Positions 13,637 through 55,021 of a DNA stretch of 64,000 nucleotides are shown here, one piece after another. The translations under genes and the position numbers were made by a program. How positions within the stretch are numbered: position 1 is the first letter of the stretch; every line of letters begins with the position of its first letter. Origin of the DNA: Eretmocerus hayati (Eukaryota; Arthropoda; Insecta; Hymenoptera; Aphelinidae); the NCBI GenBank assembly GCA_029851415.1, contig CM056741.1, positions 67,198,282 through 67,262,281 of the forward strand, given 5' to 3'. Below the pieces are notes generated by a model. That model was not told the DNA's origin and did no database searches. It worked only from the letters and a program-made list of their open reading frames with translations.

Positions 13637-13724
13637 ACGGCAACCAAAGTTGAAACGCACTCGTGTAAACACGCCACAAAGGAAATAAATAGGGAGAAGA
13701 ATCAAAATAAAAAATGTATTCCAT
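13637..13724 (+). CDS. PTP exon 1 in window: start of domain 1
   Basis: The acceptor is TTTCAG at 13631-13636 and the donor GTAAGT at 13725. It encodes the KNR-like segment before the IPY motif. It ends in phase 1, so the Tyr codon is split. A preceding exon ending in phase 0 must exist but was not found. Confidence 0.85.
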
Positions 13725-16700
13725 GTAAGTATACGATGTGAAATTATTAAGGAGGATTTCGAATCAATTTTATTAATGATTTGTGAATTTATTTTTTTCC
13801 AGATGATTATAACAGGGTCGTTTTGGAAACTATAAGTGGTCAGCCAGACTCAGATTATATAAATGCGTCTTATGTAGATGTGAGCACACTTACTGTTTAT
13901 ATCGCATCCATATTTCAATCTAAAAATGTTTTTGCAATCATTCGCATTCATACATAGTCGAAATCTATTAGATTTTGATAGCGTACTTCGACATTTTCCA
14001 TCGACTCGAAACCAGTTATTACGTTGGTGAAAATTGTTCAAGCATTCGAAATTCAGAAATTTGAAAGAAATTTCTCATACTTGTTTTCACGATCACGTAA
14101 AATCTTGAAAAAAACAGCCAAAAATTGATCAAAGCCACGCCCAGTCGAAAATTTCGTTCACGTCGGCATTGGCTTGAAGGAACGGCTATGAAAATTTTTC
14201 ATTACTCGTCTCATTATCACTGCAAAAAACTCGATGCGTTGGTGAGCTCCTTGACGCTGAGGAATTTTGGGCTTGTTATCAAACCATGATGTTCTTCTCA
14301 TTTGTTCATTTTTGTGTTTTTAAATGCCCAGTGCGATTTTTAAGTGCTAAGGTACAAAGTCACAAAAATTGTGTAAGATCAAACCAGAACACGAAGAATG
14401 ATTTCTTATGTCCTTTTTTCAGAGTTTATTAAAACCTAATGCCTACATCGTAACTCAGGGACCTATTGAAACTACCGTGATAGACTTTTGGAGAATGGTT
14501 TGGCAGGAGCAAGCTGCGTGTATAGTCATGTTGACCAAGACATTTGACTTCATCAAGGTAATCAATATCTCCTCGCAATAATGACTTAGAAAGACGAGGA
14601 AAGAGTGTCGGTGGCAGTGGTGCCAAACTTGACACCGCATCCATTCATTTATCATTCAGTCGCGCCCAACAGAAATAAGCACTCCTCCTAATACTGGTGT
14701 TTTGATAAATATTTTTCGTAGCTCAATATGACGATTTTGTCTTCAAAATAGTAGCTCAGAAAGTATCTAATCATGCGTTCATGACAACAGGTCATGTGTG
14801 TACAATACTGGCCAGCGAGTCCAGACAAAGACGAAAACTACGGAGGAATAGGGGTTTCGGTACAAAAGGAGGAAGAGCAAGCAAACTTTCACATACGCAC
14901 AATAAAATTGTATAAGACGGATGATACTGGGGTGAGTTAATCAATGATTCTGATACAATTTTTTTCAACGATCTACCACAAAATACAGGAAAACATTACC
15001 GGACAATCTTCCCGTTGCAAAACGGTGATATTATGAAACCAATTTATATCATTAAATTCTTCAGAGTACTTTGCATTCGCTAAATTTTGTATTCATACTA
15101 TCATCTTCAACAAGCCAAACAAGTTACTCATAAACTTTATCTCAATGAGATATACTCTTACTTTCATCACTCTACGTCCATTTCGGTGCTTTTACAGCGG
15201 ACGAGTTTCAGATTTCTTTTATGACTGATGAGTAATAAGACGTAGTTTGGTCGTTTCATAGTGAAAATGCATACTTTGGTCTGAAAATGTTCATTTTCTG
15301 TCCAGGGAGTCACAGAAGAGCGAACGATATTACAATTTCACTACACTGAGTGGCATTCGCACACGTGCCCTTTCGGCAATGCAGTGCTGGAATTCCGAAG
15401 GCGCGTGCGAGCGGTCGTTGGATCGACTTTGAAAAGCGAAGCTGGCCCAATGGTCGTACATTGCAAGTGAGTTATCAGATCTTGGTTCACTTCTCTTTAT
15501 GGAAAAAATCAATGATTCGATTGGTATCTTAACTTACATGTTCTGGTTTTTGCTTATAGTGACGGTGGGGGTCGATCTGGTGTCTTCCTTGCCATTGATG
15601 CAAATATGGAATTAGCGGAAGAAGAAGATGCATTCGATGTATATGGGTACCTGAAAAAATTGAGACAAAGTAGAAGAGGTCTCATAGAAAATCTGGTAAG
15701 TCTTTCAGCGTGAAGCCAACCAAGACTCCGATGGGGTTCTGTCCATCATTGATTACGATATTCTTTCTCGCTTTTGATAACGAAATACTCAAACAGAATA
15801 TGAAATCCGGGATATAGTGAATTCTAACTTACCTTATTCTTTATTTCCATCACTTAAAAGTTGAAAATTTCACATACCCATCAGCAGAGAGGTTTTATAA
15901 GGGTGTGTCCACATACGAAGCATATGCATGCATATATGCAGTGCACACTGCACACGTGCACATGAGAAGTTCATCAGATTTGAGCAGAGAATGAAGGGCT
16001 CAAACCAGAGAATCTCGGATTTGAGCCACTTTGTCTGCTTCTCCGTTACCGACTGGTCCAAAACATAACTCGACGAGTTCCGGAGGGTTCCGGCTAAAAT
16101 TTGAATAGCTGCACATGTGCACGTGTGCAGTGCATAAGAGCAGTGTGCACTGCACATGCATGCATATGTATCGTTTATCGATACACCCTTATGGGGATTT
16201 GAACACACTCCCCCTTCTCCCACCTTCTTCCCAGAGCTGAGGATCAAGGTTTTTCGAGAACTTCCAAATGAATAATGAAATTCATCCAATGAAACTAAGA
16301 AATTTTCAACAAAAATTCTCTGTCTAGCTCAACTTCCATTCAGTTCGTCTTTGAGTCATTCATTTCGATAATGATACTGCTCTAAGCTTTAGGGTGCGTC
16401 CCCAAATGATGCACAGTATGTGCAGCTTATCGAAATTGAGCAAAAATTGAAGGGCTCGCATCAGAGAACTTCTGATATGAATCGGGTTTCATCTTTGCTG
16501 CGTTACCGGCTGATCCAAAGCAGATCTAGACGAGTTCCATCTGGTTTTGGCTAAAATTTGATGAGCTGCACATGTGCACGTGCGCAGTGCATATGCGCAG
16601 TGTACACTGCATATGCATGCATCATTTGAGGACGCACCCTTACTCTCAAATATCCCCCAAAAAACCATCCAACCTTCGAATATTAGTTATCTGCCCAAGA

Positions 16701-19700
16701 AGTGACAATGATCTACTCTCGTCTACTTCAATTGTATCAACAAATGATATTTGCATCCTTTGACAACCGTCTCTCTTTCTAATTTGCATGAAAATTCACA
16801 GGAACAGTATAAATTTATCTACGACACACTCGAAGAATTTGTAGTATGTGGTGTCTCGTGGTTTCCTGTAGCGGAGCTATCCAGAAGACTGAAACTCAAG
16901 AGCCAAAAGAATCCAGTAACAAAGATGAATGAGTACCAAAGAGAATATCAGCAAATCTGCAAGCAAACTCCACGGTTTACTATAGGTGACTGCGCCGGTG
17001 GACACAGAGCCGACAATCGTGAAAAGAATAGAGATGTTCTCGTCGTACCTCGTGAGTTTTATGATCTTTGATCTCTTCATCCTCCCGTTTCCGTGTCTCA
17101 GCTAACTTTCGATATCGTTCGTGATTTGACTCTCAAAAACTTACTCGGGTTGCAACATCGTGCGGATTATTCAGTTTATGCCTGTAAAGAGATCAAACTT
17201 CCTTTCGTTGCCATCTGAATCTTCCTGGGGTTACCCGAGTTTCCTTCGCAAAATTATCAATCAGCTCATCAAAATTTGATTGATGCACATTTAAAATTTT
17301 GTCAATATCGCATAGCTATTGAGGTAGGTAGATTGTTTAGAACGAGAATTCGAAATCTAAACCTAAAAACTGCGAGCCGACCAATCATTCTTATCCTCAA
17401 TCTATCGACTGGAACAAAATATCTAAACAGAATTTCCATTTCTCTTTTCAGCCGACAATTTTAGACCTTACCTAACAAGTTTCCAAGGAAATACGTACAC
17501 GGATTACATAAATGCAGTTTTCGTCGACGTAAGTTCTATCTCCACTAGTGTTTTTTCCTTTCCGTTACCACTTATCGCAACCAAATATCTTTATATCTGA
17601 TACCCGCACCAAAAGAATCGAAATCGAATCGATCATACAGCTTAAAAACGATTGCACTAAATATCGAGTGATTTCCAATAAGAGTACCAGTCTCGATTAA
17701 ATTTTTTTCCAATAATCCCGTACATGTCAAACGCCTAGTGAAAAACAAGTGTTTCCCGTCTCTCGAAAGCGGATAGCAGCTCAAGTGTGTTCTAACGAGA
17801 TCGAGTACCCTTCATGCACCTCTGTCCGACTTATTTTTTTGAAATCGCTCTGCCTGCAGTATTGGCGCGACAAAAGTTCACTCGACTGCGGTGCTTTCAA
17901 TTTCAATCAAACGTGCACGTATAGCTATGTAGAGAGCTTGTAGAATCGAATTCGATAGCGGATATTGAGCCTGAGCTAACCGAAATCACTTGTGATTTGA
18001 TGCAGGGCTATACAAAGCCGCGCGAGTACATAGTGACCGAGTGGCCAGTAACGAAGAGCCTCGGCGAGTTTTGGTCGCTGGTGTACGACTACGAGTGTTC
18101 GGCAGTAGTCATACTCTGCGTGCCACCAACTGGATCTACCAACTACCCCAGCTTCTGGCCAGAAGGCAGACATTCCAAAAAGTACGGGCCCGTCTTTACG
18201 ATAGACCACATTAGTCACAACCATTACACCAACATCAAGACTTGGGTAAGGCTTTGAGGACGAGGTTTATATCATAATGCATTTACATTAAGAAATACTC
18301 AATTAATTGGAGTAATTGTTCATCGTTATCTGGGATTGAATATGTCGTATTGCTTGTTGATCGGTCCCTTTGTCTACTATTTGATGATAACAGCTCGGGG
18401 GCTGTCTCGAGACCAAATTAATTAATACGCATGAAGTTGATCAGAAATAAGGAATATGTAACCAAGAGACCGATCAATTTTGTAGTTGTACTTGGAAACT
18501 GTTTGCGAATTTGAGTCAGACCAGTCATACTTCTGGTTCAAACAACACAGTCGGATCCTGATTAGGTTTGAATCGAAGGAAAAACTTATTCGATTCGCAT
18601 TTCTATGGAATTTTTCAAAACTCCGAATTTACTATCTGATAGCAGCATTATGGACAAGGATTCTAATATAGTTAGACCATAGCTTGTAAAATCTTAGAGA
18701 AAATTGAAGCTAACCGCAAATGGTTTACCAATTCAGTTGTTTGGATGGCAAACCTTTAGTTAGCTTGGTAACGGTGATAGCAGAGAATGGACACCAATGA
18801 TAGGGAAAATTTTCATCCTTCGTGACTTTACACGTGAAGATCTTGTCATGTTCTCGAGTCGCGTATAAGCTGAATCGCAGATTCGTAAGGACCACAGAAA
18901 CGGCATCCATGTTTTTTACCCGGTCTAAGACAGGTAAAGCTTCTAGTCAGCTCTTCGTACAACTGATCAAAGAAGGGGCCTTGCACAAAAGACATCCGCA
19001 CGATTTTCAAGTGTTTTGGACTTCTACCTCCTCCCTTGTCATACCTTGTCACATTCGAGCAGAGTTCCCCCACCCTAAATAGATGTCATGACCCCCTCTT
19101 CTTGACCAAAATTCCATCCGAGTTCTTTATGGGTAATGAGATGATCGTAAAGTGACAAACCTACCAAAAACATGATCTAAATGATGACATTTACATTTCA
19201 TGCCCATTGTTATTCAATCAACGATGACATTGGAATTTGATCAAGAACGTCAAGATCTGACAAGAATTCAAAAGTTGGCATAACTCGCCGAAGACGTCAC
19301 AACGAGTCAGCCTCCCCCCCCCCCTACGTCCGGAAGTGTCACTTTTTGTTATACCCCTCCCATCTCCTCAGGAGCAGACGCCTTTTGTGCAAGTCTCCAA
19401 ATATCTAATTAAACCATTCTTATTCTATGAGAGCAAAGGTTTGTCTGTGATAATTCTGTTTAAATTATCTTGATAGCCCGTGACCGTGGGAATTCATTGA
19501 GAGCTAACGCCAAACAACTGCAACGCCATTAAGAGCGCACAGTAAGTAGTAAAAGACACGCTGTGGTCAGACGGGGAACATCAGCCACAACTTCATTGAT
19601 CTGTGCCTGTCCTGCGATTCTTATTGGAATCTTCCATTCAAAATCTTCAAAAAATAAGTGGAAGCATGTTGATTAGTTGAGGGCAGGATCAAGTATCATC

Positions 19701-21017
19701 GTCTTCGGCTACTCTTTATCTGACTTCAATTTCATCTTCAGGTTTTCCGGATCAACAAGAAGATCGTGTCGTTGACGGAGCTGATGGCTGGGGTGAAAGC
19801 ACCACCAAAAACAGTTCAGTTGTTCCAGCTGACGTGTTGGCCTATGGGACAGGCGGTGCCTACGTCGACCAATAGCCTAGTTGAGTTGATGAACATGGTA
19901 GAGCGATGGCGGCAGCGCACCGACTATGGGCCCGTTGCCGTCGTCTCACCGGATGGACGCAGCCGCTGCGGAGTCTACTGCGCAGCCAACGCTTGCATTG
20001 AGCAAGTCATCCAGCATGGAGAAGTTGATGTATTCCAAGCAGTCAAAACTGTTCGACGACATCGGCCCCAGCTTGTTGAGAACATGGTAAAGTCTTACAT
20101 CCTTGCACGGCATGCACGGCACCCTCCTTAAATTCCAGTTGGTTATAATTTTTAGATTATGGCATCGTTATCTCAACAGTGTTGGAATGGCGATGACAAT
20201 TTGAAATAATACCAATCCGCTCTGATAGTATCATGATACGAGGAATTCTTACCCTCGTCCTACAGCACTTGAATGGATTGGAATTACATTCATATTGATT
20301 GGTTTCTATTTGATTCAATAGCTTCTGTTTGCGGTTGTGCAATGCCGCATGAGCCAACCGCAAATTCCAATATCTAATATATTGCATCAGACAGGTTAAC
20401 ACTCGATCAGAATATAAATCAATTCTCGGTACTTTCAGTGGTTGTTGTTGTAATTAAAGTTGAGACCCGTGATAGTAAAGAGTAAAATTGACTCTAATCA
20501 TTTCAGAATCAGCCAAAGTGCAATTTTCTGATCATATTATTTTTCACGGATCCTGCGGTTTTCTAAAATTGAGATCGATTTAATTAATGCCGTTGGCGAT
20601 TTTTCCCAAGTAATATTTTCAATGAAAAGGTATCATCTTCTCCAAATGTGGTCGAACAGTATATAATCCAAACTTTTTCGATGCTCTTCCATAGCCTCGA
20701 TTATAATGGTGGTAAGGAATGCAATATTGTTAATGAAATTAAGTAATCCACAATATGCGTTATCGACATCGAAAACTTGAAGGGTCTGAAACGCTGCTCA
20801 ATTTTTAAATTACAGCCTGATGTTCGGATGTTTATGATCTGACACCAACAGAGTTACAAACAGTTCTTTGATTCAGAAACAAATTGAAACTTCGAATTCC
20901 CGAGGACTTTTATGCTGACTTTCGTCTCTATTACAGACGGAGTACAAATACTGTTATGACCTGGTTCTACACTACGTGCTGCACTACCTGAACAAAGACA
21001 TGAACGAAAAGAAGTGA
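13637..21017 (+). CDS. Receptor-type protein tyrosine phosphatase, 3' part with tandem PTP domains (5' exons not found)
   Basis: Eleven exons with GT-AG introns and consistent phase encode 576 codons ending at TGA 21015-21017. They encode two PTP domains in tandem, as in receptor phosphatases, which act on phosphotyrosine at the inner face of the plasma membrane. Domain 1 (about residues 1-260 of this part) carries [28 protein letters not shown], the P-loop HCNDGGGRSG (C200, R206) and [12 protein letters not shown]. Its WPD loop reads WHSH (S165 where Asp is usual). Domain 2 (about 300-576) has [12 protein letters not shown] instead of WPD (468-470) and [11 protein letters not shown] instead of HCxxGxGR[ST]G, so Ser504 replaces the catalytic Cys. 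Domain 2 should be inactive and domain 1 is likely weakened. The signal peptide, ectodomain and membrane segment are not recognisable here and are probably upstream. The motifs resemble insect R2-type receptor phosphatases (a Ptp36E or kappa-like protein); I am not sure of the orthologue. Confidence 0.9.
13803..13879 (+). CDS. PTP exon 2: DYNRV and DYINASYVD motifs
   Basis: The acceptor is TTTTTTCCAG and the donor GTGAGC. It encodes the conserved phosphotyrosine-recognition start of domain 1 with YDYNRV and DYINASYVD. The intron before it is only 78 bases. Confidence 0.9.
14423..14557 (+). CDS. PTP exon 3: YIVTQGP and FWRMVW motifs
   Basis: Phase 0 at both ends. It encodes AYIVTQGP...[17 protein letters not shown], typical of the PTP core. 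Confidence 0.9.
14791..14931 (+). CDS. PTP exon 4: CVQYWP segment
   Basis: Phase 0 at both ends; the donor is GTGAGT. It encodes [18 protein letters not shown], matching the C-x-x-YWP strand of PTP domains. Confidence 0.9.
15306..15466 (+). CDS. PTP exon 5: altered WPD loop and catalytic HC
   Basis: It encodes [14 protein letters not shown], the position of the WPD loop; the general-acid Asp is replaced (Trp-His-Ser). The exon ends within the P-loop right after the catalytic Cys codon (TGC 15462-15464), in phase 2. Confidence 0.9.
15560..15695 (+). CDS. PTP exon 6: P-loop DGGGRSG and following helix
   Basis: It completes the HCNDGGGRSG loop and encodes [20 protein letters not shown] and the [10 protein letters not shown] helix of domain 1. 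Confidence 0.9.
15900..16190. mobile_element. MITE with AGGGTGTGTCC termini, copy 1
   Basis: The left end is AGGGTGTGTCC and the right end is a partial reverse complement, ACACCCT. Subterminal palindromic words (TGCATGCATATGCAGTGCAC-like) flank a middle shared with copy 2: 'GAAGGGCTC', 'CCGTTACCG', 'GACGAGTTCC', 'GCTAAAATTTGA'. The long antisense open frame here is a by-product of the repeat. The short termini are hAT-like, but no clear target duplication was found. Confidence 0.75.
16391..16640. mobile_element. MITE with AGGGTGCGTCC termini, copy 2
   Basis: It starts AGGGTGCGTCC and ends GGACGCACCCT, a perfect 11-bp terminal inverted repeat. It shares the interior words of copy 1 in the same orientation, 200 bases away. 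Non-coding, inside the same intron. Confidence 0.8.
16802..17051 (+). CDS. PTP exon 7: end of domain 1, linker, start of domain 2
   Basis: It starts [17 protein letters not shown], the Q-motif helix closing domain 1. It then runs through [17 protein letters not shown] to the [14 protein letters not shown] segment that begins domain 2. It ends in phase 1. Confidence 0.9.
17452..17528 (+). CDS. PTP exon 8: DYINAVFVD of domain 2
   Basis: The acceptor is TTTTCAG at 17445-17451 and the donor GTAAGT. It encodes DNFRPYL...[10 protein letters not shown] and matches exon 2 of domain 1 in length (77 bases), as expected for duplicated PTP domains. Confidence 0.9.
18006..18245 (+). CDS. PTP exon 9: domain 2 core
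   Basis: Phase 0 at both ends. It encodes [19 protein letters not shown] and [16 protein letters not shown], the domain 2 counterparts of TQGP/FW and YWP. Confidence 0.9.
18975..19398. mobile_element. Inverted-repeat element in a PTP intron
   Basis: The ends at 18975-18999 and 19374-19398 are reverse complements over about 25 bases with a few mismatches, sharing CTTGCACAAAAG. The interior has no domain. An 11-base C run lies at about 19314-19324. Probably a MITE inserted in the intron between exons 9 and 10. Confidence 0.6.
19742..20086 (+). CDS. PTP exon 10: WPM and SPDGRSRCG, degenerate domain 2 active site
   Basis: It encodes [14 protein letters not shown] where an active enzyme has WPD, and [20 protein letters not shown] where it has HCxxGxGR[ST]G. 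Ser occupies the catalytic Cys position (residue 504 of this part), while the Arg (R510) is kept. Confidence 0.92.
20937..21017 (+). CDS. PTP exon 11: canonical C-terminus ending at TGA
   Basis: The acceptor is TATTACAG. It encodes [20 protein letters not shown] followed by DMNEKK and TGA (21015-21017). The sequence continues open in the same frame, as described in the next entry. Confidence 0.9.
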   Translation, partial: TEYKYCYDLVLHYVLHYLNKDMNEKK

Positions 21018-23822
21018 GAAAGCGAGTTGCGGGACGAGCTGTGGTTCATCGAGTTTGGCCGGGGTGTCGCGCTGCCACTCACCCCGGAAGAAGCACCGGC
21101 CGATGGGGAGCCGGTCGTACCGTGCGCCCAAGGCCGTGTCGTCGTCGAGAGTGTGAAGCCTGCGGCGCCTTGTTTTGCCACGTGTTCCGCTTACCGACGT
21201 CCACTCGACGATCAACAGCCGTCATCCGCCAGCGTAGAGCAGCAAGCATCCGTCATCAGTATAGGAGCGCCTTCGAACATCGCTCGCAGCGCCGAGGCTC
21301 CCATTATCGGTTCCGCCAGGCATCGCATGGCAACGTTCGCGCGCAGTGCCACACAAGTGCAGTTGCCGGTCGAGCTGTCGTTCAATAGCAATCGGGCTGG
21401 ATCAGCGAGCCCAGCGCCAACGAGGCCGGACGAGCTGCGTCTTATATCGTGGTTCGATGTTGAGCAGCCTCAATCTCTGGAGATAGCAGGTCGAGCTCCA
21501 ACTATCGAAACGGCCTGCAGCACACGTGCCAGCAGTGTCGAGAGCAGCGATTTGCAGCAACAGCAACAACAGCCTGCGAGGCCGCGCAGAGCGTGCATGG
21601 ACCTCATGGAAGCAATGGCTTTGCTCGACGAGACGTGCCCAAATCCACCGGAGCCCAGCCCGCCCCAGAGTCCATTTACGCCACGCTCACGCAACAAGCG
21701 TGCCCGCTCCAAGAGTAGCGATGGCTCGTCTAATTACAGCTGCGAACGGCTGGACTCGAGGGAGCGAGAACCTCAACCAGCCCCGCGCAGCAGAAGACCC
21801 TTCCTCAAGAAGATCGGTATATCAATGACTGAAGATAGACCTCTGCTAGCCAAATTGGCACCCAGGCTCATGCTTGGGAGGCCGCACCTGGAGCGAAGTG
21901 GTGCCGTACACGGTGACGCGAATAGGCCATTCCTCGACAAAATCGGACCGTCCCGCACAGTCGAACGCTTCACCTTCGACGCAAATTCTAAAAACCAGCA
22001 ACAGCAGCAGTCTCCTTCAAGTATTGCCGAAGAGGAGTCGGCCGCTGGAGCAAAAAGACGCGCTGAGATCCGTGGCTTCTCCACCGGTGAACGGCGTAAA
22101 TCTGGCAAAAGCTTCCTCGCCAAGATGTATTCGTTCGAAACGGAAGATCTCGAGGAGAATGGCTCGCTCGGATCAGCCAAAGCCAGGTCCCGAGCGCGTG
22201 CAGCGCCATCTCGAGGTGTCTCACTCGACGATACGCTTGAGGTGCCTTCGGGTCCCGGTAGCTTGGCGCGCATCAGCGAGACCAGCCCTGCAGATCGGGC
22301 GCCCACGCGGCCAAGTAGCGCCAGTACAGTGGAGCTCGTACGTTGCCGCGTTACGACCAGCGAGGAAATAATCTCGGCCGCGAATTCGCCGATGCAACCA
22401 CTAGCCTCGCAAGCAGCGCTAGAGGATGCGAATAGCGCTCAACGGTCTCAACCGGGTGGCGCCACTGTCCCCAACTCACCGACCAAGCGGATGCACTCGG
22501 TGACACCGGAACGTGTGACGGCACGCTACCGTCAGCTGGAGCAACTCCGGAACAGTAGCAGACAAATGTCCGAAGACACGCTTGACCGACGCGAGCCTCG
22601 GATACGTCCGGAACCGTCAAGAGGCGCTTCTGCAGATAATTTAGTCACAAGACCACCCAAAAACCCGCCTCGACCAGTGTTCGCCGAGATCGGTTCTAGT
22701 GGTGGAGGTCCTGGTAGTGGCTCCAACGCATCAGTCGCTTCATCAAGCTGCTCTGGAACAGCAGTCGGAGCAGCCGGCGTCGTGCATGGAGAGAGCTATG
22801 CCGAATTCAAGCGCAGCAGAACGCAACAGAACAACGCCAATGCTCTCAAACGGCTGGCGTTGCGAGAAAGAAACGCTTCGCCAGCTCCTCCTACGGTGGC
22901 TGTTCCAGCTCCCGTCGAACTCGCGCTCGCCACGAGCTCACCGAAGCCCCGGTCAAGATCAGAGGAAAACGCGGGTCGCAATCCAAACGGACTGAACCGC
23001 ACCGCGACGAGAAACCGTTCGGTACTCCGTAAGCAGCATAACATCGACCAGCCACACTACGACCCGATGAAGCGCGAGCCATCACAAGAGACGCTGGAAC
23101 TTCTGTCAGGCTTGGCCAAATTGAAGGGATCGCTAGGCGACGGGGGAGACACTATCCCTAGTATTGACGAAAACAAAGTGTCACAGTCTGCTCCGAGAAG
23201 GATACTCCTGACCGACAACGAATTCTGCCTTTCGCTGGAGAGAGAGGGTAGTGTTCGCGTGAAAGCCACGTCACCAAAGGCCAGTCGACGAGGTGCAGGC
23301 CCTCGGCTTTCGCTCGATTTGCTGGCTGAAGATGGCAGTGGCGATGTAGGAAACAAGACCAAACCGGAACCGAGAGCGTTGTCGCTGGCATCGGCAAGGA
23401 TCGATGAACCTCGTGGTGCCGGAACAGCGCCACTGGGCTCGCTCGACAGTAGTTGCTGCGAGCTGTCGAGGAGCTTCGGTTCGGAGGACGTGTTTGGCTC
23501 GCCCACTGCAGAGGAGGAAGCGGTGTTGCGGGCTCAACGGCCTAGGGCCACTGGCAACTTGCTCACGAGTAGCTCAAACGGTACGGAGCAGACCCAGACA
23601 CAGCTCAGTCCTAAGAGGAAGAGCGCGAGTGACTCGGTGGAGACGAGCGGGGGCTCGCCGAAGGCCGCTACAGGATTCCGCATGAAGATGAGGCTAGGCA
23701 GAATTTCGGTGGAGCAGACCGAGCCCAAGCACAGTGAGAGCTTCTCCGTGGCGAGTAAACCAGAATGCAAGGAACTTGCCACACAAACTGCTCAAAAGAA
23801 GCCAAAGTGCCTGCCATTATAA
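21018..23822 (+). CDS. 934-codon in-frame extension of the PTP after TGA; candidate readthrough or retained-intron product
   Basis: The frame of the last PTP exon stays open for 934 codons after TGA and ends at TAA 23820-23822. There is no ATG until 21327, so about 100 codons are open with no start codon. Base use is GC-rich like the exons and unlike the AT-rich introns. The predicted tail is low-complexity, rich in Ser, Arg and Pro with many SP/TP sites. It has two Gln runs (residues 180-185 and 327-331 after the stop) and a repeated motif like RPFLxKIG at about 260-267, 274-280, 303-310 and 364-370. Proline motifs such as PPEPSPPQSP and RPPKNPPRPV could bind SH3 domains. The end reads KKPKCLPL, a poor CaaX match. 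No enzyme domain is recognised. Alternatives: a separate protein from the ATG at 21327 (831 aa), or splicing of a 306-base segment. Confidence 0.65.
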   Translation, partial: ESELRDELWFIEFGRGVALPLTPEEAPADGEPVVPCAQGRVVVESVKPAAPCFATCSAYRRPLDDQQPSSASVEQQASVISIGAPSNIARSAEAPIIGSARHRMATFARSATQVQLPVELSFNSNRAGSASPAPTRPDELRLISWFDVEQPQSLEIAGRAPTIETACSTRASSVESSDLQQQQQQPARPRRACMDLMEAMALLDETCPNPPEPSPPQSPFTPRSRNKRARSKSSDGSSNYSCERLDSREREPQPAPRSRRPFLKKIGISMTEDRPLLAKLAPRLMLGRPHLERSGAVHGDANRPFLDKIGPSRTVERFTFDANSKNQQQQQSPSSIAEEESAAGAKRRAEIRGFSTGERRKSGKSFLAKMYSFETEDLEENGSLGSAKARSRARAAPSRGVSLDDTLEVPSGPGSLARISETSPADRAPTRPSSASTVELVRCRVTTSEEIISAANSPMQPLASQAALEDANSAQRSQPGGATVPNSPTKRMHSVTPERVTARYRQLEQLRNSSRQMSEDTLDRREPRIRPEPSRGASADNLVTRPPKNPPRPVFAEIGSSGGGPGSGSNASVASSSCSGTAVGAAGVVHGESYAEFKRSRTQQNNANALKRLALRERNASPAPPTVAVPAPVELALATSSPKPRSRSEENAGRNPNGLNRTATRNRSVLRKQHNIDQPHYDPMKREPSQETLELLSGLAKLKGSLGDGGDTIPSIDENKVSQSAPRRILLTDNEFCLSLEREGSVRVKATSPKASRRGAGPRLSLDLLAEDGSGDVGNKTKPEPRALSLASARIDEPRGAGTAPLGSLDSSCCELSRSFGSEDVFGSPTAEEEAVLRAQRPRATGNLLTSSSNGTEQTQTQLSPKRKSASDSVETSGGSPKAATGFRMKMRLGRISVEQTEPKHSESFSVASKPECKELATQTAQKKPKCLPL
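21059..21087 (+). promoter_or_regulatory. Stem-loop 42 nt downstream of the PTP TGA
   Basis: CCGGGGTG (21059-21066) pairs perfectly with CACCCCGG (21080-21087) across a 13-base loop. A second short stem (ACCGGC/GCCGGT) follows at about 21094. Downstream RNA structure can aid readthrough in some insect genes. Its role here is inference. Confidence 0.35.
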
Positions 23823-24701
23823 CAGTCGAAGGTCGAGCCCGCCGTGGCTGCAACACCGCGACCAAGGCCTTACTGAAACCAGCCCACGCGCTAGTTACGG
23901 GCTCTCGAGGACCATTTTTCTATGATAGGTATTACATCAGCTGTATCATGCCACTGTTCACGACAATTGCCACTCACACTCGCCAGTGTACGTGAATATG
24001 TTGCAGACCAGTTCGCTGTCTGTTCGCGGACCGCCAGTGGTTCACTGTCGAATTTATACGATTGTAGATAGTTTTTTGCGGCGTGATATTCTAATCTAGA
24101 TGCGTAAGTATTGTCGTGTTGTTTCGTTATACGTACTTACTGCGAATTCAGAAGAGCGTCCCAAAAGATTTCCGTATTGAGCTATAAGCTTCTGTGACGA
24201 GTGAAGATAAATGATTGTGTGCTATGAAGAATGAATATGTGTGCTATGAATCTAATTTCAAATCCCCTCGAGAAGCCTGCATAAGAGAGTGTTGGTTGTG
24301 ATTCAAAGTCAGCATTTAAGGTGAGCTTGGATTCCATGAGAGTATGAAAACGTTTGGAATCCTTCCTTCAAAATCCCGGTATCCGTGTTAGAAAAGGCCC
24401 GGTGAAAATAAGGATTTTCTGTCTCGCTCATTTATTTGATAACTGATTGTAAAGAATGGATTATATATTCAAGTCATGAATACAGGTCGAGATTTTCCCG
24501 GGTTAGTATCTTGGTCAAAGTAGTTTTCGTGTGGGAAGAATTTTATTTGAGGGGTTGAAGACCCCGAAATGTATCGATTGATAAGAATTCTGTGCAAAAA
24601 AGTGCTTATGCCTCGAAAATTTGATGTAAAAAGTGAGAACCACGATTATTTCTCATCAATGAACGTGTGTAGCGAATAGTGATCTTAAGAAGAGCAATAA
24701 A
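23823..24701 (+). other. Probable PTP 3' UTR with poly(A) signal
   Basis: No coding signal follows TAA. A canonical AATAAA lies at 24696-24701 in AGAGCAATAAAG, a plausible cleavage signal for the phosphatase transcript. Other AATAAA-like words follow near 24870. Confidence 0.5.
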
Positions 24702-27214
24702 GTAATTATACGCTGCACTATACGAGGGGTGATATAATTACGGTATCCCATTCTCCAATTAGGTCTGTTCAGGAGGTGAAAGTGATAGATTTGCCTGATG
24801 GGTTACGTTATTGGGATGATTTTCTTGTCTAATTTCATCAAAATCCATATCTTGGCGATTCCAGCAAACTGCAAAAATAAAAAAATAATTCGTAGAAGTA
24901 GTCCCAATTTTGTTAAAATAGGTGTGAAAGCATCTTGATTGTAATGTAGGCCTTACTAAGTGAAGATTCATGCTCGAAGTTTGATAAATATAACCTTCGA
25001 TCCAAACTCTGAACGTGTTCCCCATATAACTGAGATTGTGAATGAGTGTACAAACAGCATAGAAAAATGCACAGCTTGGACTGTCGAGAATCTCGTTTAT
25101 TTATTTGTAAGTTTTCAGACTAGTTTTCAGTGAGTATTTGAATGATTTGTTGTTTAAACATAAAATCAGATTCAAAAAACATGCAGATTTGAAACACTTA
25201 TTGTTGCGAGGAGTGCCACAGTGAAAAAAAGTGGAGACTCTGTAACTGATGGTCCTTGCCACAATGATTGTGTTAAGTTTATTCTCCATTCTTGGCGATC
25301 ACTTGAAAATCGCACATCGAGGCTTGAAACCAGCTCTAAGGTGCTTCTAACAAACAAATAGGATGACAAAATGACGTAGATAAAACTATTCAATGCATGA
25401 CTTCATCGCAAAATTCTCATGAAGTTTGGTGGCTAATCATCCTCAGCACATAAGATTCTTTCAAAATGAAAAGAAAAGTGGATTGGGAAGTTTGGTGTTT
25501 TCCGGTTTTGTTTTTAAAGTCATTTCGATGAATAGAGAGATAGCTATTGAAGTCGAACAGTGCCTTGTCTCTGATTTTTTAATGGATGAAAAATTATTAG
25601 ATATCATGACATGCACCATGTTTTTTTGGAGACTCAACGTATGAACACCCCAACGCTCCCGTTCGACAAACGTCCCGGACAAGACTTGATAATGTCGATT
25701 TCCTATGTTATGAACGCGATTGGTGATTGAGAGAGAAATTTGCATCGTTAATGCAATGTTAGGCAGAAAAAAAACTGCTAGACATATTATTGCTTTCTGA
25801 AAGCCGTAAAAAATGGCCTCTTTTCATTTTGATTTTTATGAATTTTCTCTCAATAGAGCAATTCTGGCATGTATTCTATTGATACCTACAAAATTTCATG
25901 TGATTTGGTTAAATAATTCGAGATATTTACAGAATGGATTCCACTTTATCTCGCTATATATTCAACATGGCGTCTGACTACGGCCACGCGTTAAGGAAAA
26001 TAGTGTAGAGTGCTTCCTCTGAAAGAAATGTATCAATTCGATTCGATGAGCTCAATTACTCACTCTAGAGGCTGATTTCTCGGAAACTCAAGCAAGTTTT
26101 ATTTATTGTACAGAGCATTTGCATAGTCGGTTCCTTCTATGGTCCTCTGCGGGTGCAACTCAAGAATGTTTTAGGAATCATAACGGTTGAGCGAACTGAT
26201 GATCACGATTTCAATTTGTTAATAGTAAACGTGAAAGGAGCTCCAAGTTAAAGATAATAATATAAACATGTTGTGACTGAATAATCTCGTAAAATCTATG
26301 TATAAAAAACAAAGGATATTAATAATGTATAGTATAATAAGTTGAAAAATACTCATCGAAAGTCTATGATGTCGGTAACGGCAAATACCATAGTTCCAGT
26401 GGAATTGCGCCATTCTGTTAATTCGTATACTATTCATTTGATCGTGGAGTTGTTTTCCTGATCCTCAGATGGCTTCAAAGTACAAGCAATGTGGGATTCA
26501 ACTGCGAGCACCGATAGTTCTATCGTGATTGACAAATATATTACAGTGGTGTGTATTTGTCTTACTGCAATTTTCAGTGGGTTGGATCAAATGAGATTGA
26601 AGGCTCTGAGCTCCAGGATGATTTCCAGGAATATCAAATTGGAAACAATATATATGAGAGGGTAAATACCTACTCCTTTAACTCGTTCGGTTTGTTTAAA
26701 GGATATCTGATCTCTTCTTTTCATCATACCTAGCCTATGAAGAACAAGGATAGAATAATAATACTGGAATTCGTTTCCGACCCAATCTTTTGCGTGCATT
26801 CGCCTGAACCCACATTCCAGATTATTCAAAGTTCTGATATGACAAACGGTCCCAAATTGAAATAAATGTTGTATTAATTATGTTGTATGAAATTATCAAG
26901 GCGAGAAATTCATCTTACCTCGGCTCTAAAAGTGAGGATACTAAGAGTATTATACTTTCGACTCGTCTGTATGAATTCGCATGTAAGAAAATTCGGATGT
27001 TTTGATCCGCCGTCGCTGAGCAGCTCTGACAAGAGATATCTCAACGGTCTATGAAGTGTTCCATGCGCCTGCAAAATGTATTTCATTGTAAGGAGAATCA
27101 GGAAGAAATGTGAGAAATGATAGGCAAGGCAATCGTACTAAACAATTTTTCTTGACATCGTGATGTCTCATGAAGAACTATTCTCATCGCAGGTCTCAGA
27201 AACATCATCCTACG
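24702..27214. other. No gene recognised
   Basis: Short open frames only; no domains, RNA genes or clear repeats were recognised. Confidence 0.5.
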
Positions 27215-39026: not shown

Positions 39027-41219
39027 TTAGTGAAGCATTGGAACAAAATAGTAATAGCCATTGAAGAACATCTGGAAAACTTTCTTTTTTATCATACTGA
39101 CAGGGCATTCAAATACATTTTCACTCAGTGTGTTTGATCTGCAAATTCCAACTTCTCTTGAGTCTATTGGGTAGTTATCTATAGGAAGACAATCAGTGAA
39201 TTTTTTGAAGAGAATGACATCATCCGCAGTGCCAATTCTTCTACAAATGAAGTCAATCACGACAAGGGTCCCATCATTGAGATAGCAGCAGTTGTTAGGT
39301 TTAGAGTTTGTCAAGGTGAAGTTTTGGAATTTGATTAGCTTACGAGGAGCCCAAAAACCTTGCGGAGGATCTACATTTTTTAATTCCTCAAGGATTCTGA
39401 AACCTTGAGGATAATTGATCAGCTCTTGGATCTTACCTTTGGACCTTGATAATGCAACCACAGCTTGCTCATTACTTCTTTTGATAACTTGAGCAAGCAC
39501 CTGATTACCCTTCCTGATGTTTTTCCGAACAAACCTCAAGTGATTTTCATAACGCCAAGCACTGAATGAATCCAGTGGACCATGTCTCATGACTTCATCA
39601 GGAAGGTGAAGGTTGTTGTGGGCATTATAAATTATATTATGGACCCCGTAAAGAAAAATTAATTCAACTACATATTCTTTTAACAATGCTTTTGCATCAG
39701 CATTTTTAGTGTAACAATACTCCTCAGAAGTTAAGTATCGGATGGCTAGGCTGAATTTATTAAAGTGTTTCATGGATACCTCATTCATATATTTGGAGAA
39801 CACAATGGAAGCTGTATAAAGATCTAAGGTGCGAAACTCTTCAGCTTTGAAATGCACAAAGTCCTTAAAACTTCTTGGTTTTCTACCAAATTCCATTGGA
39901 GTCCATTTCTTGAGGCTCTCATAATCCTGATTCAACTCTTTCAGCAACTCATCACTGCCTAAGCTCTTTAGAGTTGATATAAAAAAAGTCATATGCTTTT
40001 TACCTTGCCCAAGATGCACTTGATGCATGGGCTCTAATGGAACCTGGTAGATAGGATCAACAGCCTCCTCAAGTTGAGAAGAATCTTCATATTTTTCAGG
40101 AACACCTTCTCTAAGATTTTGTGCAGTACGTGGAGGTGCATCATGATTCAGAAAGAGGCACCTTCTGCCCAAAGTGAAACCATCTTGAATGCATCGCCCA
40201 CATCTGCTATTATGGGGTGGGAATTTAAGTATGAAATTTCTAGCCGGTGTATCAGCAACCACCTTATCTAGATGAATTTGATAATGAACATCTTTATAAA
40301 TGAAATCATTAGTTTGTAAGTCCTCTAATTCTTCTAAGAGAGGCCTCAAGTACTCATCAGCATCTTCCGGCTTAGAATCTCCATGATGAGCACCAATGAT
40401 GAAACATTCTTTAAGCAATTCACAATTATTCACACACCCTAAAATTGTAAAAAGCTCACTCTTAGAACTTTTAGAAACTGTAACACCATCAACATGAACA
40501 TCAAAATGAATGGTTCTAGGGATAAAACGTTGAGGGATACAATGAAGCTGTTCAACCAAAGCTTTACAGAGCCCATAATGAGCATAACTGCCATTACCCA
40601 TTGGTATGATTTCTACACTTGCAGGTGTCTTAAGAAGGGTACGGGCATCTTTGGGTAATTCAGTGTGCCCAGCTTGGATTAAACCAGAAAGAAGTGATGA
40701 TGTAGCACACAATGTGATGTTATTAGTTAGACTCCATTCCCTTAGAAATGACTTGAGATCAAATTGATCTGCCCCATCATCATCAGATTCATCGCTGGAT
40801 ACATAATTTGATTCAGAATCTGAATCTTGAACTGATCTCTCTTGATCTGATTCTGCATCATCCTGAGATTGTGCAGGTGAATCATCGTGTGATGAGGGAT
40901 GAGATGGCACAGATTCATTATCAGAGTCATTTGAAGGGGCAGGATTTTGATAATAATCATCATCGTTGTCACTCAAAGCATGAGCTTGAACATCCATTTC
41001 ATCAGTAATAGAGCTGTTAGTCGGCGGATTATTGATCGATAGACCGCGATTCAGAGGAATATTTTGTAGCCGCGCTAATTCTGAAGAAACAACTCTCTCG
41101 CGGTCAGTTATATCTAGTTTTTCGATACGTCTCTTTTTTTGCCTCTCTGAGAGGTTATGAAACTCTTTCCTCAAGCTCATGACAAAAGAGACGGATACCA
41201 AATGCAAATTAATTGTCAA
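39027..41219 (-). CDS. TNP2/CACTA-like transposase, intact
   Basis: A single uninterrupted frame of 730 codons; the better start is the internal Met at 41180 (MSLRKEFHNLSERQ), giving 717 residues. It would cut and join the ends of the element. Residues are counted from 41219. An acidic Asp/Ser-rich N-terminus (about 70-150) precedes the core. IHFDVHVDGVTVSKSS (about 237-252) and DKVVADTPARNF followed by CGRC (318-343) match the TNP2 pattern of Asp residues and a Cys pair. PMHQVHLG (397-404) follows, and FKAEEFRTLDLY supplies a candidate Glu (about 460). NAHNNLHLPDEV with HGPLDSFSAWRYENHLRFVR (532-565) resembles the DUF4218 part of plant CACTA transposases. The C-terminus, with VVIDFICRRIG, is unassigned. 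The fold and triad assignment are inference. Confidence 0.8.
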   Translation of the reverse strand: MTINLHLVSVSFVMSLRKEFHNLSERQKKRRIEKLDITDRERVVSSELARLQNIPLNRGLSINNPPTNSSITDEMDVQAHALSDNDDDYYQNPAPSNDSDNESVPSHPSSHDDSPAQSQDDAESDQERSVQDSDSESNYVSSDESDDDGADQFDLKSFLREWSLTNNITLCATSSLLSGLIQAGHTELPKDARTLLKTPASVEIIPMGNGSYAHYGLCKALVEQLHCIPQRFIPRTIHFDVHVDGVTVSKSSKSELFTILGCVNNCELLKECFIIGAHHGDSKPEDADEYLRPLLEELEDLQTNDFIYKDVHYQIHLDKVVADTPARNFILKFPPHNSRCGRCIQDGFTLGRRCLFLNHDAPPRTAQNLREGVPEKYEDSSQLEEAVDPIYQVPLEPMHQVHLGQGKKHMTFFISTLKSLGSDELLKELNQDYESLKKWTPMEFGRKPRSFKDFVHFKAEEFRTLDLYTASIVFSKYMNEVSMKHFNKFSLAIRYLTSEEYCYTKNADAKALLKEYVVELIFLYGVHNIIYNAHNNLHLPDEVMRHGPLDSFSAWRYENHLRFVRKNIRKGNQVLAQVIKRSNEQAVVALSRSKGKIQELINYPQGFRILEELKNVDPPQGFWAPRKLIKFQNFTLTNSKPNNCCYLNDGTLVVIDFICRRIGTADDVILFKKFTDCLPIDNYPIDSREVGICRSNTLSENVFECPVSMIKKKVFQMFFNGYYYFVPMLH

Positions 41220-42024
41220 CTTGAAGAGTTAGAGATGTACTATTCTAGGATTAATAATATAATAAATATTATACTCAAATTTCGATGGGGAATTCAGCGT
41301 TCTCTAGGAGTTGAAGAGGGTCCTCTGCGGTTTGCTCCCTGTGGATGCTCCAAAAAGACTGGGTAAAAGCACACTTTTATTATTATTATTGCGCGCGCGA
41401 TAAATCATCACACATGTCGATTAGATGTCGTCAAGACTTCGTCAACACATATCGTGCGAGGTTTTCGCGCCGTCTTGCGGCAGACATCCGACAGACATCT
41501 GTACGATGACTTCGAGTATTCGTGTTCAATTCATCTAGATTACGACGAGTATACGACAAAATTACGATGTCGCTGACTTGTCAATGTCGAACGCAATGTT
41601 TGCTGGGTAGGCAAAGTTCGCTCTAATTTGCTCAATTTTGCTCGGATTCAGACTCACGAGCGCTCAACCTCTTCGTTTCTGAAAACCCTACAATCGCATA
41701 CTGTTGTCTGATCCAAGTTATTGATTTTGAGCTAAATGCATAAGAAGACTGAAGCCCGCACTAAACACGTTTGACTGCTCCCTACCGTGGCATGCCATTT
41801 TCCGCCACCCGGATGCGCTGAAACTCATACTTCCCATAACAGCAACAGAAGGCTGGAATTTCGGTAGAGGTTTGTACCTAATCCTATACTTTGAGATAAA
41901 TTCATCATCAATAACCGACCTCCCAAGAGCCACGTTTAACGTGGAGAATTACGGAGGCAAGCGAGTAGAGTTTCTTGCATCCAAAAAAAAGAAATGTATC
42001 GAAAACTTACTCATATATTAAATA

Positions 42025-53639: not shown

Positions 53640-53740
53640 CCAATGAGAACGTCGGCCTGTCGTCACCGGCAGCCAATCGGACGGCCGGGATCTGACGCCA
53701 CTTCTATATTTAGCCCGCGCTGTGAGTCACGAGATATAAG
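53640..53740 (+). promoter_or_regulatory. Jun core promoter with CCAAT, CRE-like, TATA-like and AP-1 motifs
   Basis: CCAAT occurs at 53640-53644 and 53673-53677, a CRE/ATF-like TGACGCCA at 53693-53700, TATATTTA at 53705-53712, a consensus AP-1 site TGAGTCA at 53723-53729 and a second TATAAG at 53735-53740. The order and tight spacing fit a stress- and AP-1-responsive promoter. The AP-1 site would allow Jun to act on its own gene, as known for vertebrate c-jun. The start site itself is not visible. Confidence 0.6.
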
Positions 53741-53758
53741 CTCAGTCGCTCGCTCGAC

Positions 53759-54124
53759 TTGGGCGCAGAAGCAGTGCAGAATTGGCGCTCGGCGCTTCTG
53801 GACGTGCCTCCACGATATAAGAGCTCGCCTCGTGGCCGCTCCCACGTTCATACCTTGTTGACAGTGCGGGCGCGACCGATCATCCGCGCTCCACGATTTT
53901 CTTGTTATACCCGGTGCAGTGCTCTCACTCTCTCTGAACGGACGCCCACTTTGAGAACGTTCGAGGCCTCCTCCGCGGTTGTGCATTACGTAAGCCCGAC
54001 GAGCCTACGCGGCTCTTGCATCTACAAACCAGTGAGTGCGCGAGACATCTCCCACGTGCCCGGAATACAAAATCCAGAAGCAGCAGCAGTAGCTGCCCCA
54101 ATGGTACGTAACTCCGTCATCACC
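53759..54124 (+). other. Jun 5' leader with an unusually long in-frame open stretch
   Basis: The frame of Jun is open for 122 codons upstream of the chosen ATG, from a TTG at 53759; the only ATG in it is at 54101. Predicted text is low-complexity with no domain. Most likely this is a GC-rich 5' UTR. A non-AUG N-terminal extension cannot be excluded. Confidence 0.4.
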
Positions 54125-55021
54125 ATGGAGCCTACGTTCTACGAGGAGCAGATGTACGGCTCGCCCGGAGCCCGACCCCTCGCCCTCACGTCGGGCCTCA
54201 GTCCAAATCCGTCGGGTGGTCCCCTCAAGCGACCCAACCTCAGCCTCGATCTAAACAGTGCCACGGCCGTCGGAGCCGGTATTGGAACGCCCGGCACGAG
54301 AACGCCCGGTGGTAGCAAACGCTCAAGGTTACTCAGTAGTCTGGGCTCGGCTGCGGGGCTACTCACGCCGCTGCTCAACTCGCCCGGCGATCTGCTCAAG
54401 ATCAATTCGCCAGAGTTCGAAAAATTGTTGATCGCTCAGCAGGACGGCGGCATCGTCACGACCATGCCAACGCCAACGTCGCAGATCTACTTCGGAGAAA
54501 AAATCGTCACCGAGGAGCAGGAACAGTACGCCCGGGGCTTCGTCGAAGCTCTGAACGAGCTTCACCACTCGGACAGCTCGCAAGAGCCCAGCAGCATTCA
54601 CGGAGGTGGCAGTAATTCGACAACCTACACGAATCTTGAGCCACCTCTGCACGTGGGCGACTCGCCGGTGCACCTGCCCGGACACTACGGACTGTTGCAC
54701 CACGTGAAGGACGAGCCACAGACGGTGCCGAGCGTGTCGAGTTCACCGGGGCCGATGTCGCCGATCGACATGGAATCGCAGGAGAAGATCAAGCTCGAGC
54801 GCAAGAGACAGCGGAATCGCGTTGCCGCCTCCAAGTGCCGGCGACGCAAGCTCGAAAGAATATCGAGGCTCGAGGACAAAGTGAAGCTCCTCAAGGGTGA
54901 AAACAGCGATCTCAGCCAGGTGGTCAACAGGCTGCGCGAGCACGTGGCTAGGCTCAAGGAACAGGTCATCGATCATATGCACTCCGGCTGCCAGATATCC
55001 AGTCTACCCGGCATCATCTGA
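54125..55021 (+). CDS. Jra: Jun, AP-1 bZIP transcription factor, intronless
   Basis: A 298-residue protein in one exon, as is usual for Jun genes. Start chosen at 54125 ([20 protein letters not shown]) because it matches the Jun N-terminus; an in-frame ATG also lies 24 bases upstream at 54101. Residues 34-44 ([11 protein letters not shown]) correspond to the JNK-docking delta region. T81-P, S86-P and S95-P within [20 protein letters not shown] correspond to the JNK-phosphorylated activation sites. The basic region at about 221-245 has [16 protein letters not shown] with the redox-sensitive Cys238. The zipper leucines fall at 249, 256, 263, 270 and 277, exact heptads. It works in the nucleus as a dimer with Fos or itself on TGA(C/G)TCA sites at the end of JNK signalling. 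Confidence 0.96.

Follow-up and report, generated by a model that had tools for sequence, protein, structure and literature searches.

Programmed stop-codon readthrough is abundant in insects, as documented for Drosophila and Anopheles genes (PMC3840789, PMC5100048), and 851 candidates have been reported from the bumblebee in a study that finds readthrough abundant in bees (PMC7826183). The extensions of flies are generally disordered and rich in motifs, and the validated ones tabulated in PMC4999894 are 154 to 444 residues long (KEL 316, HDC 430, OAF 154, SXL 356, SYN 444); many pairs of mosquito and fly extensions are not visibly related (PMC5100048). Readthrough of the phosphatase gene Ptp10D in the Drosophila brain is cited in PMC13170385, and for Hymenoptera a conserved readthrough of UGA without selenocysteine has been proposed in SPS1-UGA (PMC4561486). 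Here we describe a 64,000-nucleotide stretch of the genome of the hymenopteran Eretmocerus hayati (contig CM056741.1, positions 67,198,282 to 67,262,281; hereafter the window), in which a gene for a tandem protein tyrosine phosphatase (PTP) of the Ptp36E type ends in a TGA that is followed by 934 further codons in the same frame. An earlier note on this DNA had proposed programmed readthrough, and we consider it the best explanation, with a probability of about 0.8. The proposal draws support from conservation that begins with the first codons behind the stop, from the ends of PTP models in relatives, and from models of the extension that start as "partial" proteins.

Eleven PTP exons with consistent phases and GT-AG borders span 13637-21017 of the forward strand. 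The first ten (13637-20086), located by tblastn with orthologues P0114, P0116, and P0118, lie at 13637-13724, 13803-13879, 14423-14557, 14791-14931, 15306-15466, 15560-15695, 16802-17051, 17452-17528, 18006-18245, and 19742-20086. The last exon (20937-21017, forward strand) is identical at 26 of 26 residues to proteins of Phymastichus, Trachymyrmex, and Polistes, and closes with TGA at 21015-21017 in the context AAG AAG TGA GAA AGC; the nearest same-frame stop upstream of it, at 20916, is intronic. As the earlier note had observed, the frame behind the TGA then remains open over 21018-23819, a run of 934 codons that we call the tail, up to a second stop, TAA, at 23820-23822. The roughly 100 codons that the note had placed ahead of the first in-frame ATG number exactly 103, the ATG being codon 104 at 21327. 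At the base composition of the tail, 934 codons would stay open with a probability of about 10^-14, and no open run in 300 dinucleotide shuffles exceeded 356 codons; across the whole tail the other two forward frames contain 22 and 35 stops.

Within the 309 nucleotides before the ATG, one of these other frames is likewise free of stops. Openness alone is therefore weak evidence in that part, where the earlier note had found it telling, and what stands in its place is a coding-like composition. Against a codon-usage model derived from the exons together with the later part of the tail, the 103 codons score -0.6 bits, above every one of 500 shuffles (mean, -22.8; standard deviation, 8.6; maximum, -1.5) and above the other five frames over the same stretch (-10.6 to -52.7). 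The description of the segment as GC-rich like the exons needs correction, as GC content by codon position is higher in the tail (0.61/0.57/0.60) than in the joined PTP exons (0.51/0.38/0.51) at each position. No AATAAA or ATTAAA occurs between the TGA and the tail end (20900-26500 searched), so that one mRNA would carry both stops; the first AATAAA 3' of the last PTP exon is at 24696-24701 of the forward strand. The last PTP exon and the start of the tail each have one match in the 692-Mb, 17-contig genome. The phosphatase gene is single-copy, and a second gene copy, which found no support in the genome, was set aside.

A protein search with the tail recovered 113 proteins at an E value of 1e-3 or lower among 7982 scored. 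The top relative is from Phymastichus coffea, and all species-named rows listed among the relatives are Hymenoptera, from sawflies to ants and bees. The best-conserved 60-codon window of the tail is formed by its codons 1-60 (21018-21197, forward strand; mean majority, 0.89, versus 0.57 elsewhere), with the core RDELWFIEFGRGxALPLTPEEAP at 21030-21098; codons 201-240 (0.89) and 261-320 (0.86) are the runners-up. This profile was computed from 63 non-redundant rows of the 114 in the alignment of all 113 hits, with late starts not counted as gaps, and it comprises only 5 to 6 rows at codons 1-4 and at least 25 from codon 5 onward. Judged by this conservation, the tail is a real protein. Its composition is rich in S, A, R, and P, it carries four spaced RPxL motifs at residues 260, 274, 288, and 303, and neither the tail of the window nor that of P0014 matches a Pfam family. 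Residues 260-306 (21795-21935, forward strand) appear in Hymenoptera as a conserved PFLxKIGxS in 55 rows picked for having the block. Scans of viral contigs and of genome contigs found no DNA of relatives. An AlphaFold model of P0208, built from 27 sequences, had a mean pLDDT of 41.8 and was not used.

The positions at which the relatives begin bear on whether the tail could be a separate gene with its own start. This reading gains from the many genomes in which the tail is annotated as a locus of its own for an "uncharacterized protein" and from the ATG available at 21327. However, among the 113 relatives, 6 start at tail codon 1, 3 at codon 2, 42 at codon 4, 2 at codon 5, and 26 at codons 8-34; models with starts at or near codon 1 are labelled "partial", and the others fall variously within or behind the block. 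All nine of the relatives that start at codon 1 or 2 are named records labelled in this way. The anchor sequence used for these positions is absent in 33, and a run-on from the PTP is seen in just 2 of the 113, P0061 and P0091, the latter being one of the 33. The 42 codon-4 relatives have M where named records show L, and the window codon is TTG; with a closed frame before it, an automatic caller probably settled on this as the earliest start allowed. In the window, an ATG nine codons farther up, within the final exon of the PTP, would have been usable had the frame been open. A separate gene would also leave 103 coding-like codons ahead of its ATG, the first 60 of which make up the best-conserved window, and we judge it very improbable. 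The separate-gene annotation is likely a widespread misannotation. Names attached to the tail in the databases include "uncharacterized protein, partial", "titin-like", "myb-like protein Q", and "cell wall protein DAN4".

We then asked the same question from the other side of the stop, using the best 120 of 327 matches to the PTP part at an E value of 1e-100 or lower, 118 of which were new. Among the matches listed, 39 of the 118 are PTP models whose last residues are exactly EKK, where the window has its stop, and these include Hymenoptera, Lepidoptera, a flea, bugs, a cricket, a stick insect, a louse, and mosquitoes. In Trachymyrmex cornetzi, Phymastichus, Habropoda, Trichogramma, and Prorops, the records of the PTP and of a separate tail gene agree in the length of the longest contig, and in these five species the two probably share a scaffold; in Habropoda the PTP model has an end other than EKK. 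Judged by where PTP models finish and tail models start, the position of the stop looks conserved.

Models that run across the stop extend the comparison beyond Hymenoptera. PTP and tail are combined in ten lepidopteran models (1082-1336 residues), two from Timema, one from Blattella, and one from Anopheles maculatus, which together with P0061 and P0091 gives 16 models that cross the stop by 13 different joins. The joins include DLVLHY|DELWF (three Lepidoptera), DLVLHY|FGRG, CYDL|FGRG, NEKN|PP, NEKN|HG, NEKN|PS, NEKK|LL, KEKK|FIEFGRG (the mosquito), and KEKN|EQEQLWY (Timema). We infer that gene finders detect a coding frame behind the stop and invent mutually incompatible introns to reach it. 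Profile comparison with hhalign relates the wasp tails to those of Lepidoptera over the first 60 residues (E value, 1e-12) and to the Blattella group over the first 26 residues (E value, 2e-7), whereas behind the block no hhalign comparison between orders is better than an E value of 0.1 and the middle of the tail is unalignable. The conserved block behind the stop is common to cockroach, stick-insect, lepidopteran, and mosquito models.

The same models raise the possibility that the TGA is removed by alternative splicing, which would join PTP and tail in frame and make the stop-containing form an intron-retaining isoform. A donor, A|GTGAGA, does overlap the TGA, and at 5.2 bits it falls just under the weakest donor of the gene (range, 5.7-10.8 bits); moreover, the 16 models of relatives link PTP to tail apparently by predicted introns, and three lepidopteran ones share a join. 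Against this, the 16 models disagree in 13 ways, and the exits from the GTGAG donor to an acceptor behind the block in P0091, P0122, P0125, P0128, and P0195 delete the best-conserved part of the tail, so that splicing of this kind cannot explain why the block is conserved. Acceptors are a further difficulty. No AG in 21020-21500 scores above 3.6 bits, compared with 9.4-15.2 bits for the acceptors of the gene itself; the AG at codons 3/4, whose use would leave the block intact, scores -13.1 bits and is preceded by 15% pyrimidines; and where the lepidopteran models share an acceptor, the window reads CGG and offers no AG. Where EKK*E/D is kept, it would force a purine-rich run ahead of the block, so that no acceptor tract fits. 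Within the window, then, no plausible acceptor was found for a splicing route around the stop, and we regard splicing as unlikely, though less so than a separate gene.

Recoding of the stop by other means was also considered. ADAR editing of UGA to UGG (tryptophan) would remove the stop in the RNA. A guanosine 5' of the edited adenosine is a disfavoured ADAR neighbour, and the A of this TGA follows a G. In the large hepatitis delta antigen, editing recodes a stop and thereby adds a prenylated tail ending in C-x-P-x, which lends the idea a parallel. The proline at +2 of that ending is recorded in PMC1175975, and in the predicted mRNA fold here the TGA falls within a loop closed by a long pairing, but the fold around the TGA is no better than shuffles (z score, +0.51). 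Editing thus seems to us a poor candidate, about as improbable as a gene of its own for the tail. To insertion of selenocysteine at the in-frame TGA we give next to no credence, because a search of 20500-26000 gave no Rfam match of any family, a selenocysteine insertion sequence included, at an E value of 1 or lower and because selenoproteins have been lost in wasp, bee, silkworm, and flour-beetle genomes (PMC2500217, PMC4561486).

Several points weigh against programmed readthrough. The base after the stop is G, and the earlier note had rightly remarked that TGA-G differs from the classic leaky TGA-C; the window reads TGA GAA, and a G can also be deduced in six of six relatives in which codon 1 is visible, because it encodes Glu or Asp there and all codons for these start with G. 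A stem-loop, CCGGGGUG...CACCCCGG, does begin 42 nucleotides behind the stop (21059-21087, forward strand), as the earlier note had stated, and its stability is borne out only for the hairpin excised alone (41 nucleotides; z score, -2.1), a choice made post hoc. Folds of 60, 80, 123, and 204 nucleotides are no better than shuffles (z scores, +0.35, +0.49, -0.30, and +0.51), and as a readthrough stimulator the stem-loop lacks support in these four of the five folds. Beetles, higher flies, and crustaceans among the matches listed end the PTP differently, and the difference in beetles and higher flies means that the feature is not universal. The lepidopteran models P0140, P0142, and P0152 share one 19-codon excision, possibly a true intron in those species, and for the two Timema models (KEKNEQEQLWY) the genome itself may lack the stop. 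Finally, conservation of the stop is inferred from the annotation ends of relatives, the interpretation of the codon-4 rows assumes that callers accept an internal start only if the upstream frame is closed, and the splice scores come from a small matrix (10 donors and 11 acceptors of this gene) that was scored on its own training sites.

The far end of the tail is conserved as well. A terminal C-x-P-L or C-x-P-F is present in 127 of 132 tail rows, namely, all 113 of the first search, 8 of the 10 lepidopteran models, Blattella, four close relatives, and P0237; the local form is CLPL (23808-23819, forward strand). The exceptions, P0195, P0200, P0204, P0205, and P0208, have ends that look chimaeric or cut. 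Compared with a CaaX box, these 127 rows have the Cys at -4 and end in a residue that such a box permits, L or F, and in place of an aliphatic residue at +2 all 127 have proline. A CaaX box ending in L or F is acceptable to geranylgeranyltransferase I or farnesyltransferase. Wasps and Lepidoptera have basic residues ahead of the Cys, which the two Blattella-group rows checked lack. Proline at +2 of a prenylation box is unusual and is found in the hepatitis delta antigen (PMC1175975), and the idea has a precedent in one fly extension for which a prenylation signal was predicted in a ribosome-profiling study (PMC3840789). By prediction, the C-x-P-L/F end could be a prenylation signal or, alternatively, a PDZ ligand. 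Two conserved ends with a middle free to change between orders are the pattern expected of a leash, and the preservation of the start and last four residues between orders suggests a readthrough-dependent anchor or docking end.

The short form, which ends at the TGA, can be characterized largely through its orthologues. Pfam PF00102 matches two of the PTP exons in the window, and orthologue P0114 contains two PF00102 stretches, as in a tandem PTP; the N-terminal 120 to 135 or so residues of P0114, P0116, and P0118 had no tblastn match in the window. Orthologues are labelled Ptp36E in the butterfly record P0152 and "receptor-type tyrosine-protein phosphatase kappa" in many others. By homology, the gene is an insect Ptp36E-type tandem tyrosine phosphatase. 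The usual Kyte-Doolittle threshold for a transmembrane helix is 1.6. In seven of the eight arthropod orthologues checked (P0114, P0116, P0118, P0123, P0143, P0182, and P0192), the most hydrophobic 19 residues average 1.29 to 1.48, and in the eighth, P0208, values reach 1.83 at an odd C terminus. Because the peaks stay below the threshold in seven of eight, the short form is probably intracellular, without a transmembrane helix. Both phosphatase domains look catalytically altered, judged by the CX5R and WPD motifs. The first domain (15306-15695, forward strand) retains CX5R as HCNDGGGRSG and has WHS in place of the expected WPD; the second (19742-20086, forward strand) lacks the catalytic Cys. 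These altered residues recur in the orthologues inspected. The intron between PTP exons holds, at 15900-16630 of the forward strand, two similar stretches rich in ATGCAT and CACGTG, noted by eye.

Elsewhere in the window, a Jun-type open reading frame with PF03957 and bZIP matches occupies 53726-55021 of the forward strand as one open frame. Its match to Jun begins only at residue 135, and the frame is thus open well before the conserved part. A 733-residue open reading frame at 39027-41228 of the reverse strand has a weak, sub-threshold match to DUF4218 and the appearance of a mobile element.

If programmed readthrough operates at this gene, ribosomes would read through the TGA that ends the Ptp36E-type frame, and the same mRNA would yield a second protein that is 934 residues longer. 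The leakage would presumably be a regulated minority event, and the long form would be expected to differ from the short form in its location. It would add the block DELWFIEFGRG..PLTPEE beside the second phosphatase domain, followed by a fast-evolving and probably flexible spacer, and its terminal C-x-P-L/F could be prenylated or bound by a PDZ domain, holding the phosphatase at a membrane or scaffold. The "signalling tail" of the earlier note is a supposition. Extending the idea, we offer tentatively, and as more doubtful than the readthrough itself, the view that the leaky stop is a localisation switch between a soluble PTP and a PTP on a disordered leash with a lipidated or docking C-x-P-L/F end. 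Such a switch might date to early winged insects, with only the two ends of the extension kept, and might have stayed hidden in annotations as "partial" genes and invented introns.

If true, a readthrough extension of great length and age has been overlooked because annotation pipelines split it into two genes. It would provide a natural test of how a TGA-G stop can leak in the absence of a known motif, and of whether a signalling enzyme can be positioned by recoding. Small constructs could serve to test both ideas, since the conserved stretches, found at the two ends, are short.

As to earlier descriptions, the word "phosphatase" is absent from the main text of PMC7826183, whose candidate table may list the bumblebee orthologue, and no word beginning with "Ptp" occurs in the main texts of PMC5100048 and PMC3840789, although the Anopheles candidate tables may list the gene. 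Readthrough is absent from the Ptp36E papers examined, as far as their titles and the starts of their abstracts go. In the literature searched, no paper paired readthrough with "CG7180", which we take to be the gene number of Ptp36E.

Among known systems, Ptp10D, presumably a receptor-type enzyme, is likewise a protein tyrosine phosphatase with programmed readthrough, but it is a different phosphatase. The kelch extension is, we believe, longer than its tabulated value. The large hepatitis delta antigen, as we understand it, resembles the long form in that recoding of a stop adds a tail with a prenylation box, and differs in being viral, produced by RNA editing, and short-tailed, whereas prenylation here is only predicted. 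Proline at +2 is common to both (PMC1175975). At 934 codons, the tail is about twice as long as the validated fly extensions tabulated in PMC4999894. In SPS1-UGA, the hexanucleotide GGG-UG[C/U] comes after the UGA, and the UGA lies within a strong RNA structure (PMC4561486), while here the hexanucleotide is absent and the fold is no better than shuffles. The TGA-G context also sets this locus apart from the classic leaky stops of the fly and mosquito cases. Like the Drosophila and Anopheles readthrough genes, it has a same-frame extension conserved at the protein level, here behind a stop that looks conserved as judged from annotation ends; unlike the mosquito-fly pairs of PMC5100048, the start of this extension is kept between insect orders. 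What is new here, as judged from the alignments, is a tail whose start and last four residues are kept between orders while its middle is unalignable.

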